A DNA stretch of 64,000 nucleotides from Affinundibacterium amnicola (lineage in GTDB: Bacteria; Pseudomonadota; Gammaproteobacteria; Burkholderiales; Burkholderiaceae_D), in assembly GCF_014284275.1 (NCBI RefSeq), contig NZ_JACOFU010000003.1:186001-250000 (forward strand), read 5' to 3'. The stretch's first letter is position 1. Each line of letters starts with the position of its first letter. The notes under the pieces are model-generated. The model saw only the letters and a list, made by a program, of their open reading frames with translations. It was not told the DNA's origin and did not search any database. Below are positions 5,635 through 8,090 of the stretch, in pieces. The position numbers and the translations under genes are program-made.

Positions 5635-6804
5635 ATGAAAATCCATGAGTATCAGGGTAAAGAAATCCTCCGTAAATACGGAGTGACCGTACCGCGCGGT
5701 ATCCCATGCATGTCCGTTGAAGAAGCAGTCAAAGCTGCTGAAACTTTAGGCGGTCCAGTATGGGTAGTCAAAGCACAAATTCACGCCGGTGGCCGTGGTA
5801 AAGGTGGTGGCGTTAAAGTCGCTAAATCCATGGAGCAAGTACGTGAATATGCGGAAGCAATCATGGGCATGCAATTGATCACGCATCAAACTAGCCCTGA
5901 AGGTCAAAAAGTTCGTCGCTTATTGATCGAAGAAGGCGCTGACATCAAAAAAGAACTGTACGTCAGTATGGTTACTGACCGTATCAGCCAACGCGTGGTG
6001 TTGATGGCGTCTTCTGAAGGCGGTATGGACATCGAAGAAGTGGCTGAATCTCATCCAGAATTGATCCACTCTATCGCGATCGATCCAACTGCTGGCCTGC
6101 AAGATGCAGAAGCAGATGATATCTCCCGTAAAATCGGTGTACCAGAAGGCTCTATCGAAGACGCACGTGTTCAGTTGAAAGGCTTGTACAAAGCTTTCAT
6201 GGAAACCGATTGCTCTTTAGCAGAAATCAATCCTTTGATCTTGACTGGTTCAGGCAAAGTGATCGCGCTCGACGCGAAATTCAACTTCGACGCAAACTCT
6301 TTGTTCCGTCAACCAGAAATCGTTGCGTACCGCGATTTGGATGAAGAAGATCCAGCAGAAATCGAAGCATCTAAATTTGACCTTGCTTACATCTCCCTCG
6401 ACGGTAACATCGGTTGCTTGGTGAATGGTGCTGGTTTGGCGATGGCAACGATGGATACGATTAAGTTGTTCGGCGGTGAGCCAGCTAACTTCTTGGACGT
6501 AGGTGGTGGTGCGACCGCAGAAAAAGTGACTGAAGCATTCAAGATCATGTTGAAAAACCCAGGTTTGAAAGCAATCTTGGTCAACATCTTTGGCGGCATT
6601 ATGCGTTGCGACGTGATCGCTGAAGGCGTGATCACTGCATCTAAGGCAGTGTCCTTGCAAGTACCTTTGGTGGTACGTATGAAAGGTACTAACGAAGAAA
6701 TCGGCAAGCAAATGCTGGCTGACTCTGGTTTGCCTATCATCGCTGCAGACACGATGGAAGAAGCGGCGCAGAAGGTTGTTGCCGCTGCTGCCGGTCAATC
6801 TTAA
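5635..6804 (+). CDS. sucC: Succinate--CoA ligase, beta subunit
   Basis: Beta subunit of succinyl-CoA synthetase, the TCA-cycle enzyme that makes ATP (or GTP) from succinyl-CoA. At 389 residues it is full length. It has the ATP-grasp N-terminal half starting [17 protein letters not shown], a nucleotide-binding region with [11 protein letters not shown], and the CoA-ligase C-terminal domain with [15 protein letters not shown]. The start is preceded by GAAGGGAAG. Its partner sucD normally follows within a few dozen bases; here a 373-bp GIY-YIG element lies between them. Confidence 0.98.
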
Positions 6805-6816
6805 TAATTTAGAACT

Positions 6817-6852
6817 GTCGTTCCCGCGGTATTAGGCGGGAACCTAGCGTCG
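6817..6852. repeat. Left terminal repeat of GIY-YIG element
   Basis: A 36-bp hairpin-forming end, with TTCCCGC and GCGGGAA arms, 12 bp after the sucC stop. It matches the reverse complement of 7154-7189 except at four positions. Confidence 0.85.
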
Positions 6853-6859
6853 TAGATTG

Positions 6860-7153
6860 ATGGACAAATACTATTACGTTTACATGTTGGCGAGTCAGCG
6901 CAATGGCACTTTATATTTAGGTGTGACGGCAAATCTGATGGAGCGAGTGTGGCAGCATAAGAATAAATTTGTTGAGGGTTTTACCAAGCAACACGGTATC
7001 GATCAATTGGTTTGGTTCGAACAACATGAAGAAATCGCCGGTGCGATTTTGCGTGAGAAGTAAATCAAAAAATGGAACCGTGATTGGAAAATCAGATTGA
7101 TCGAAAACGCTAATCCTTATTGGAACGATTTGTATTTAAACCTGACTGCATAA
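6860..7153 (+). pseudogene. GIY-YIG nuclease, interrupted by one stop codon
   Basis: A 97-codon frame for a small GIY-YIG domain protein of the UPF0213 type. It begins MDKYYYVYMLASQRNGTLYL (the YVYML...GTLYLGVT motif) followed by ERVWQHK. After residue 67 (REK) a TAA at 7061-7063 interrupts the frame. The same frame then continues with IKKWNRDWKIRLIENANPYW to a TAA at 7151-7153, which is the normal C-terminus of the family. The family usually has REKQIKKW here, so a single CAA-to-TAA change explains the break. The ATG at 6860 is preferred to the TTG at 6857. It belongs to the inverted-repeat element around it. The truncated form keeps the catalytic tyrosines but loses the conserved C-terminal third. 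Confidence 0.85.
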
Positions 7154-7189
7154 CGACGCTGGATTCCCGCCAAAAACCGCGGGAACGAC
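7154..7189. repeat. Right terminal repeat of GIY-YIG element
   Basis: A 36-bp inverted copy of 6817-6852, starting at the base after the GIY-YIG stop codon and ending 19 bp before the sucD ATG. Confidence 0.85.
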
Positions 7190-7208
7190 AAGTTAAAAGG
7201 AAAGAAAA

Positions 7209-8090
7209 ATGAGTATCCTGATTAATAAAGACACTAAAGTCATCACCCAAGGTATCACTGGTAAAACTGGCCAGTTCCATACACGTATGTGCCGCGATTA
7301 CGCGAACGGTCAAAACTGTTTCGTTGCTGGCGTTAATCCTAAGAAAGCTGGCGAAGACTTCGAAGGCATCCCAATCTACGCGAATGTTTCTGAAGCTAAA
7401 GCGGCTACTGGCGCGACAGTTTCCGTAATCTACGTTCCACCAGCAGGCGCAGCAGCGGCGATCTGGGAAGCGGTTGAAGCGGATCTCGATTTGGCGATCT
7501 GTATCACAGAAGGTATTCCTGTCCGTGACATGATGATGTTGAAAGACCGCATGGCTAAAGCTGGTAGCAAAACAAAATTGCTCGGCCCTAACTGCCCAGG
7601 TTTGATCACACCAGACGAAATTAAGATCGGCATTATGCCAGGTCATATCCACCGTAAAGGTCGTATCGGCGTGGTTTCCCGCTCTGGTACATTGACTTAC
7701 GAAGCAGTTGGTCAATTGACAGCGCTCGGCTTGGGTCAATCTTCTGCAGTTGGTATCGGTGGCGATCCAATCAATGGTTTGAAACATATCGACGTCATGA
7801 AGATGTTCAACGATGATCCAGATACAGACGCTGTGATCATGATCGGTGAAATCGGTGGTCCAGACGAAGCGAATGCTTCTTACTGGGTACGTGACAACAT
7901 GAAGAAGCCAGTCGTTGGTTTCATCGCTGGTGTAACTGCGCCTCCAGGCAAACGTATGGGCCATGCTGGTGCATTGATTTCTGGTGGTGCTGATACTGCG
8001 CAAGCAAAATTGGATATCATGGAAGAATGCGGTATCAAAGCAACTAAGAACCCGTCAGAAATGGCGCGTTTGTTGAAAGCAATGTTGTAA
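7209..8090 (+). CDS. sucD: Succinate--CoA ligase, alpha subunit
   Basis: Alpha subunit of succinyl-CoA synthetase; it binds CoA and carries the phosphohistidine intermediate. At 293 residues it is full length. The Rossmann CoA-binding start ITQGITGKTGQFHT and the LLGPNCPGLI segment are intact. The active-site histidine is His252 in GHAGALISGG. AAAAGGAAAG lies just before the ATG. It must be co-made with SucC, but the intervening element adds two hairpins and a broken gene between the cistrons. A strong terminator follows. A long open frame antisense to this gene (7110-8003) is a codon-bias shadow. Confidence 0.98.
   Translation: MSILINKDTKVITQGITGKTGQFHTRMCRDYANGQNCFVAGVNPKKAGEDFEGIPIYANVSEAKAATGATVSVIYVPPAGAAAAIWEAVEADLDLAICITEGIPVRDMMMLKDRMAKAGSKTKLLGPNCPGLITPDEIKIGIMPGHIHRKGRIGVVSRSGTLTYEAVGQLTALGLGQSSAVGIGGDPINGLKHIDVMKMFNDDPDTDAVIMIGEIGGPDEANASYWVRDNMKKPVVGFIAGVTAPPGKRMGHAGALISGGADTAQAKLDIMEECGIKATKNPSEMARLLKAML

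Follow-up and report, generated by a model that had tools for sequence, protein, structure and literature searches.

The closest described relatives of the locus analyzed here are the REPs of the CGTC super-family (Di Nocera, De Gregorio and Rocco 2013), which includes the dRS3 elements of Neisseria and RPE-4/6 of Rickettsia, as listed in the consulted part of that article (PMC3733652). As defined there, these REPs carry (i) a CGTC, TGTC, or CCTC tag that is unpaired at one end, (ii) a stem of 8 to 9 bp that starts from A/G-T, (iii) a CCA tail, and (iv) a loop of 4 to 5 nt, with other loop lengths in some species. The same pages place them in five phyla and mostly in head-to-head (HH) dimers, i.e., inverted pairs with the tags outside; for CGTC, they enter a minus under "association to TPAse genes", name no associated enzyme, and know of no dedicated transposase (PMC3733652). 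For the GTAG-tagged REPs, the dedicated partner enzyme is RAYT. We consider it probable, on balance, that a family of small GIY-YIG nucleases is the corresponding partner of the CGTC-tagged REPs. Our literature search, the scope of which left out preprints and most subscription papers, returned no paper that ties GIY-YIG genes to CGTC REPs, and the consulted part of PMC12306157 contains no occurrence of GIY or nuclease.

The window, by which we mean the entire 64-kb stretch of DNA that was analyzed (G000:C23:186001-250000), belongs to a source genome of 4.58 Mb (G000), the genus of which is probably Undibacterium, judged by relatives that bear names. The junction of interest lies between two genes that we take to be sucC and sucD, following the original prediction and general knowledge, and contains the following features.

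5635..6804, + strand: sucC (succinyl-CoA ligase beta subunit), the left host gene, from the ORF list; the gene order is the same in related loci.
6816..6853, + strand: left end, a CGTC-type REP hairpin with its TGTC tag outward and its CTA tail on the gene side, plus a GCGTCGT extension.
6860..7153, + strand: small GIY-YIG nuclease gene, interrupted, of 97 codons plus stop (PF01541).
7061..7063, + strand: in-frame TAA that ends the protein at residue 67, from the ORF list and translation.
7153..7190, - strand: right end, the CGTC-type REP hairpin in inverted orientation, with its TGTC tag outward and its CCA tail on the gene side.
7198..7214, + strand: ribosome-binding region (visual assignment) together with the sucD start, ATGAGT, whose second codon, of the AGY type, marks the filled allele.
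7209..8090, + strand: sucD (succinyl-CoA ligase alpha subunit), the right host gene, from the ORF list.

The end of sucC (6804) and the start of sucD (7209) are 404 bases apart, compared to 14 to 30 bases in 27 congeners in which the junction is empty. The original prediction had placed between these two genes a 373-bp unit with inverted ends, and this unit is real; the 32/36 identity noted at 6817-7189 is the inner part of arms of 38 nt (6816-6853 and 7153-7190) that are 89% complementary (34/38). A chance repeat is ruled out, since only 6/1142 random places in related loci reached an inverted-repeat score of at least 13.65, whereas the arms of the window score about 28 by arithmetic (34 matches, 4 mismatches). 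Each end also folds on its own through TTCCCGC/GCGGGAA, as had been predicted. The left end, with an 8-bp stem (GTTCCCGC/GCGGGAAC), does so at -8.9 kcal/mol (8 pairs, z -2.6) and the right end at -7.5 kcal/mol (7 pairs), with a z of only -1.6, so that the right fold is unremarkable by itself. Beyond these two ends, a strict detector found no further such hairpin in the whole window.

The unit is an HH REP dimer with its tags outward and a gene as its spacer, and it displays the tag, the stem and tail, and the dispersed copies that characterize CGTC REPs. Stem sites of the type TTCCCGC...GCGGGAA number 21 in the source genome, as opposed to 5 or 2 for a backward control (two counts), and 99 and 134 REP sites with the same stem are present in G023 and G037, respectively. 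The hairpin loop measures 8 nt in both ends of the window unit and 4 nt in the right end at the same site of G023 and in most of the 220 ends of the survey described below. The original prediction had likened the layout to REP/RAYT systems, a good intuition that missed the published super-family of these hairpins, and it had stated correctly that the unit lacks a transposase, the only frame between the ends being the GIY-YIG one. An ordinary IS or transposon was rejected because the unit, in spite of its terminal inverted repeats, has no DDE, Y1, serine, or tyrosine transposase, and no duplication was seen. A RAYT system, which may work alike, was rejected because the unit has no Y1 HUH domain and its frame is GIY-YIG. 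A structured RNA family and an anti-phage defence module were discarded on account of a single sub-threshold Rfam match, located outside the unit, and of the lack of a PADLOC match, respectively.

The nuclease frame extends from the ATG at 6860 to a terminal TAA (7151-7153) that abuts the right repeat, as originally described. The claim that the unit holds only one gene was right in that there is a single GIY-YIG frame (6860-7153), but it overlooked that this gene is broken. An in-frame TAA (7061-7063), at codon 68 of 98, leaves a protein of 67 residues and removes K70, R74, K77, N85, and W88, the columns of which are 99 to 100% conserved among 228 proteins. Over the same 228 proteins, the rounded conservation is 99% for Y8, Y19, R29, and H33 and 100% for E66, K70, R74, N85, and W88; Y, Y, R, H, E, and N are the conserved residues to which roles are assigned in PF01541. 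The readable part of the window frame matches PF01541 (1.3e-8, 35.5 bits; cut-off, 22.6) and is 76% identical to the intact protein of G023. Intact gene copies are present at the same sucC-sucD place in relatives, and those of G023 (51.8 bits) and G002 (53.0 bits) both exceed the PF01541 cut-off of 22.6. Small GIY-YIG proteins of similar size are known as YhbQ/UPF0213-like. No NCBIfam model matched the protein, the best match among solved structures was Slx1 with an E of only 0.07, and a homing endonuclease profile of PHROGs matched weakly (E 0.003).

The other small copy of the source genome (C30:240790-241065; L201) has an in-frame stop too, and the third PF01541 place of the genome is a frame of 639 residues; an intact small GIY-YIG gene was thus not found among the PF01541 places of this genome (two small ones, both with a stop, and the one of 639 residues). 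With both small copies interrupted and intact genes present in congeners, the GIY-YIG/REP system of the source genome appears to be in decay. In general, the nuclease gene is under purifying selection, with its best-conserved columns intact. Mean dN/dS values were 0.08 to 0.22 in 8/9 same-site groups, in a crude estimate that omitted saturated pairs, used 7/16 loci of the largest group, and gave no value for the ninth group, the single pair G000/G023. Conserved columns and purifying selection suggest a working enzyme. The upstream neighbor is co-directional with the gene in 153/198 loci and the downstream one in 106/198, and read-through from the upstream gene probably accounts for transcription of the nuclease gene; according to the consulted part of PMC3733652, REPs lie mostly downstream of genes, which may alone account for the upstream co-direction in 153/198 loci.

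The sucC-sucD junction was compared in 30/43 genomes of the genus of the source genome, the latter included. It is filled in 3/30 genomes (G000, G002, and G023) and empty in 27/30. The 15 genomes of a second genus comprise 4 with a filled junction (G123, G141, G229, and G239, the frame of G141 having several stops), 10 with an empty one, and 1 without a match. Relatives thus do not always carry the gene at this place, and the idea of a mobile unit stands in this respect. Across both genera, 7/44 loci are filled; sucD starts with ATGAGY in 7/7 filled alleles and with ATGTCN in 37/37 empty ones. On a tree of the 44 sucC+sucD rows, from which the first 8 sucD codons were excluded, the filled state requires a minimum of 6 changes, and the hypothesis of one clade is rejected (p-AU 1e-5). 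AGY goes with the filled state in 6/6 independent pairs (p 0.031), and the junction is empty in G007, the nearest relative of G000 on this tree (support 82/99).

Visual comparison of the 37 empty with the 7 filled junctions showed no target duplication; as the spacer differs throughout, there may have been an old one that has eroded. Since the differences extend over the spacer and into codon 2 of sucD, and no duplication is visible, simple insertion is not what these junctions indicate. The pattern fits a homing-like copying of the filled allele together with a short edge, and we take the chances for and against allelic copying at sucC-sucD to be about balanced. Of the mobility put forward in the original prediction, the patchy distribution supports the general idea, which is undemonstrated, and the junctions speak against its simple form. 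Convergence could produce a similar picture if there had been independent insertions at a favored site, with AGY selected each time for a stronger translation start of sucD once this gene lay apart from sucC. The marker rests on 6 independent pairs only (p 0.031), and the two element lineages at sucC-sucD differ, both of which favor convergence. A change from TCN to AGY, however, takes two simultaneous substitutions or a non-serine intermediate, and AGY is nonetheless found in 7/7 filled and 0/37 empty alleles; we regard convergence as unlikely, although deserving of consideration, and keep the copying of a filled allele as a tentative reading of this site.

The association of such genes with CGTC REPs was surveyed in three sets of loci, namely, (i) set A, the 80 best relatives from a scan of one genome per species in 84,980 species, belonging to several phyla; (ii) set B, a family search of 392 genomes, 89 of which had a match, with 90/104 listed places used and the 14 lowest-scoring ones left out; and (iii) set C, a phylum search of 398 genomes, of which at least 108 had a match, with 87 loci among the matches listed. 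Sets A and B overlap partially. Of 260 gene places in total, 254 had flanks no shorter than 150 bp (some genes occurring twice), and 239 were left once identical proteins had been removed; the 228 proteins in the tree and the conservation table remained after frames with more than one stop were removed. A structural detector, which demanded GTC, a stem of 7 or more pairs in which one mismatch was tolerated, and then CCA or CTA, retrieved 255 hairpins in the set A loci versus 5 in shuffled loci.

Outward-tagged CGTC REPs were found within 300 bp on both sides of 110/239 non-identical small GIY-YIG genes, on one side of 81/239, and on neither side of 48/239; before removal of identical proteins, the counts were 119, 87, and 48 of 254. 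REPs on both sides were seen in 38/77 (set A), 41/88 (set B), and 40/89 (set C) cases. As a control, the remaining ORFs in these loci, counted once each, had REPs on both sides in 9/567 cases and on one side in 82/567, and ORFs of less than 450 bp had them on both sides in 4/113. A motif-free inverted-repeat test was passed by 157/239 genes (54/77, 40/77, and 63/85 by set) versus 20/481 control ORFs. In its first version, applied to set A, 53/80 genes passed, the corresponding figures being 6/1142 for random places and 21% for 800 pairs taken across loci. The kind of ends first noticed in the window is thus related to GIY-YIG genes in other genomes as well, so that the mobile-unit idea is not refuted on this count either. 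The union of detector and motif-free test covers 166/239 genes; neither was positive for 73/239, which counts against a partner enzyme.

The nearest REP has its tag outward in 134/162 upstream and 117/159 downstream cases. On the tree of the 228 proteins, which is poorly resolved, the unflanked label needs 33 changes versus 42 in shuffles; flanked and unflanked genes are interspersed, so that the pairing extends beyond a single branch. A facing pair of one stem and one spacing, GCGGGAATCCA N370-400 TGGATTCCCGC, occurs once each in 5/392 genomes, and 4/5 of these pairs enclose a small GIY-YIG gene (G297, G311, G354, and G378; not G053). Taken together, small GIY-YIG genes lie beside CGTC hairpins in many bacteria that are only distantly related, and one orientation of the hairpins prevails.

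As many as 40 different upstream 8-nt stem types occur among the 110 genes flanked on both sides. An identical 8-nt stem is found at both ends of the gene in 64% of these 110 cases, compared to 12% between loci (permutation p 1e-4). The start of the stem is nearly constant over the 220 ends, with A/G (78/20%), T (95%), mostly T or C, C (96%), and C (93%), none of which was demanded by the detector. The base before GTC, a motif that the detector imposed, is C in 79% and T in 17% of the 220 ends. An enzyme that reads tag, foot, and tail would be expected to leave such a trace, a foot that stays constant below a freely varying apex. Stems covary with their proteins (Mantel r 0.32, p 5e-4), which physical linkage alone would predict likewise. 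Some REP dimers have unusual forms. Several of those in genus g29 (L381, L383, L384, and L387) have GGTC in place of the CGTC tag at one end and a common outside sequence, CGGGACGCG or CGGGGCGCG, as if inserted in or carrying another repeat. The dimer L389 (G037:C1:1832266-1832710) has a 63-bp spacer that itself contains a hairpin, GAAAATGCCA...TGGCATTTTC; its genome, G037, has three gene places.

REP numbers per genome were determined as sites of the form TTCCCGC N2-12 GCGGGAA. At least 10 REPs were present in 64/89 gene-bearing versus 36/303 gene-less genomes of one family, with a Mantel-Haenszel OR of 12 (p 1e-13) when stratified over 12 genera; in genus g19, the respective numbers were 28/28 and 4/28. 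The difference was non-significant in 7/12 genera (g4, g5, g9, g12, g15, g37, and g42), which are mostly small. In genera g5 and g27, the gene is present and this stem is nearly absent, the loci shown using other stems. The correlation could also run in reverse, in that more REPs provide more chances of enclosing the gene, and the 36 gene-less genomes with at least 10 REPs count against a partner enzyme. Gene-less HH REP dimers were found in related genomes. We inspected 20 stretches around REPs, 19 from other genomes of the family and one from the source genome, which were chosen non-randomly (at least 7/20 were picked for two close REP sites); by the strict detector, 14 contained an HH pair of about 70 to 125 bp and 3 an isolated unit, and no hairpin was detected in the remaining 3. 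The gene-less genomes G155 and G247 (genus g29), with 46 and 47 REPs, are candidates for enzyme loss.

Gene-less dimers and the 36/303 gene-less genomes rich in REPs are also what one would see if the GIY-YIG gene were the cargo of a composite REP-ended unit that is moved in trans by, for example, a RAYT or IS transposase, and these genomes frequently encode Y1 transposase domains. Such a passenger, however, should be one of many genes, yet REPs enclose other ORFs in only 9/567 cases and were found on either side in 0/28 ParE toxin loci of a REP-rich genus. Y1/RAYT-type transposase domains occur in 59/61 genomes of that genus, including those without REPs of this stem, so that the presence of Y1 domains does not explain the REP number. 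In addition, the consulted part of PMC3733652 reports no association of CGTC REPs with transposase genes, and the conserved columns and purifying selection suggest a working enzyme. Carriage as a passenger is thus quite unlikely in our view, and a partner enzyme encoded in the spacer remains our preferred reading.

The 90 family loci correspond to 44 sites, 11 of which are common to 2 to 16 loci. The largest shared site comprises 16 genomes of three genera (g1, g5, and g27) and includes L201. At this site, the second shared one besides sucC-sucD, a relaxed detector found REPs on both sides in 3/16 loci and on one side in the rest, which counts against the partner reading. The stems at this second site differ from those at sucC-sucD, e.g., CTCCTGC versus TTCCCGC in G000. 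Since many copies reside at shared sites, in up to 16 genomes, movement is rare and old copies are common. A tblastn search of plasmid records found 33, five of which were examined. On plasmid AZO_p3 of Azospirillum lipoferum 4B (L405, NC_016623.1 254606-256696), the gene lies between sufB and sufC, co-directional with them, and is flanked, according to the detector, by one HH REP dimer to the left and one to the right; sufB-sufC is a second case of a split linked gene pair. CGTC REPs of the dRS3 kind are present on both sides in a Neisseria gonorrhoeae record, but the nearest ones have their tag toward the gene, which counts against the partner reading. By eye only, and missed by the strict detector, repeats were seen on both sides of the gene in S. 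meliloti (CCTC tagged), Novosphingobium (GTCGCCCCGTG), and Planktothrix (GTCATTCTGAG...GAATCTC). The repeat GTCATTC...GAATCTC surrounds the gene in Planktothrix agardhii plasmid p1 (L408) and in L267 and may represent the super-family with yet another form of tail. For Moraxella catarrhalis, one table in the consulted part of PMC9465073 lists RAYT and, apart from it, a GIY-YIG gene, both as genes confined to a single clade.

Residence at shared sites, purifying selection, and the occurrence of 1 to 4 gene places in each family genome that has the gene would also suit a domesticated nuclease that serves the host together with its REPs, e.g., in the control of REP-bearing mRNA or in cruciform removal, apparent movement being ordinary recombination. 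An important host function fits poorly with the patchy state of sucC-sucD (at least 6 changes), and a match in only 89/392 family genomes and the broken copies likewise argue against it, making a host-serving pair improbable. That the element is old, was inherited vertically, and was repeatedly lost from sucC-sucD, as opposed to being gained horizontally, is very doubtful: the site is filled in two genera, several other sites are common to related genomes, and the elements of G000 and G023 are nearly as alike as their flanks (77% versus 81 to 83%), but every loss would have to restore the TCN serine codon of sucD (37 empty TCN, 7 filled AGY), and the elements of G000 and G002 are 69% identical within flanks that are 91 to 94% identical, so that the element was not inherited jointly with them.

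From the association of gene and hairpins we infer cleavage and movement. It is rather likely that the nuclease acts on its own REPs. The enzyme would recognize the constant foot of the extruded hairpin, i.e., the YGTC tag, the RT-CC / GG-AY foot, and the CCA tail, irrespective of the variable apex, and would cut near the tag. GIY-YIG enzymes hydrolyze DNA and do not join ends, and host recombination would therefore repair the break by copying. The insertion of DNA lies outside GIY-YIG chemistry alone, which counts against a partner enzyme. Copying repair would spread the unit into empty alleles together with a short co-converted edge, in a homing-like manner, and gene-less REP dimers would spread in trans. 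We tentatively advance, as a serious possibility, that this is a new class of selfish element, in which a GIY-YIG nuclease cuts CGTC hairpins and host repair spreads its own gene and many gene-less dimers among distant bacteria, and which may be the motor of CGTC REPs, including Neisseria dRS3 and the Rickettsia palindromic elements. If this is true, the enzymes that power mobile repeats of bacteria would include GIY-YIG nucleases, for which the sucC-sucD junction offers a natural test. Now that a specific candidate can be named, with the hairpins presumed to be its substrate lying on both sides of its own gene, the question of which enzyme serves the CGTC REPs becomes testable.

In comparison with known systems, the layout of REPs plus enzyme is of a known kind, and the class of enzyme is, as far as we have seen, new for that layout. 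(i) CGTC REPs are alike in the outward YGTC tag, the stem of about 8 bp starting with RT, the CCA/CTA tail, and the head-to-head dimers, and the pairing of gene and REPs is found also in A. lipoferum, a species named in the consulted part of PMC3733652; unlike in CGTC REPs as described, the dimer spacer here is a nuclease gene, and the loops in the window measure 8 nt instead of the typical 4 to 5 nt. (ii) YhbQ/UPF0213-like proteins are alike in size and in the GIY-YIG domain; none of the papers listed by our searches was seen to connect them with REPs. (iii) GIY-YIG homing endonucleases, which are free-standing or intron-encoded, share the GIY-YIG core, the presence/absence alleles at one site, and the edge marker that goes with the filled allele, whereas the elements described here have full hairpin repeats at both ends and non-coding derivatives, and no split recognition site was seen. 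(iv) The RAYT/REPIN system (REPtron) shares the arrangement of one enzyme gene amid inverted tagged REPs, the few gene copies, and the gene-less dimers elsewhere; it differs in that the enzyme here is a GIY-YIG nuclease and not an HUH tyrosine (Y1) transposase and that the tag is CGTC and not GTAG.
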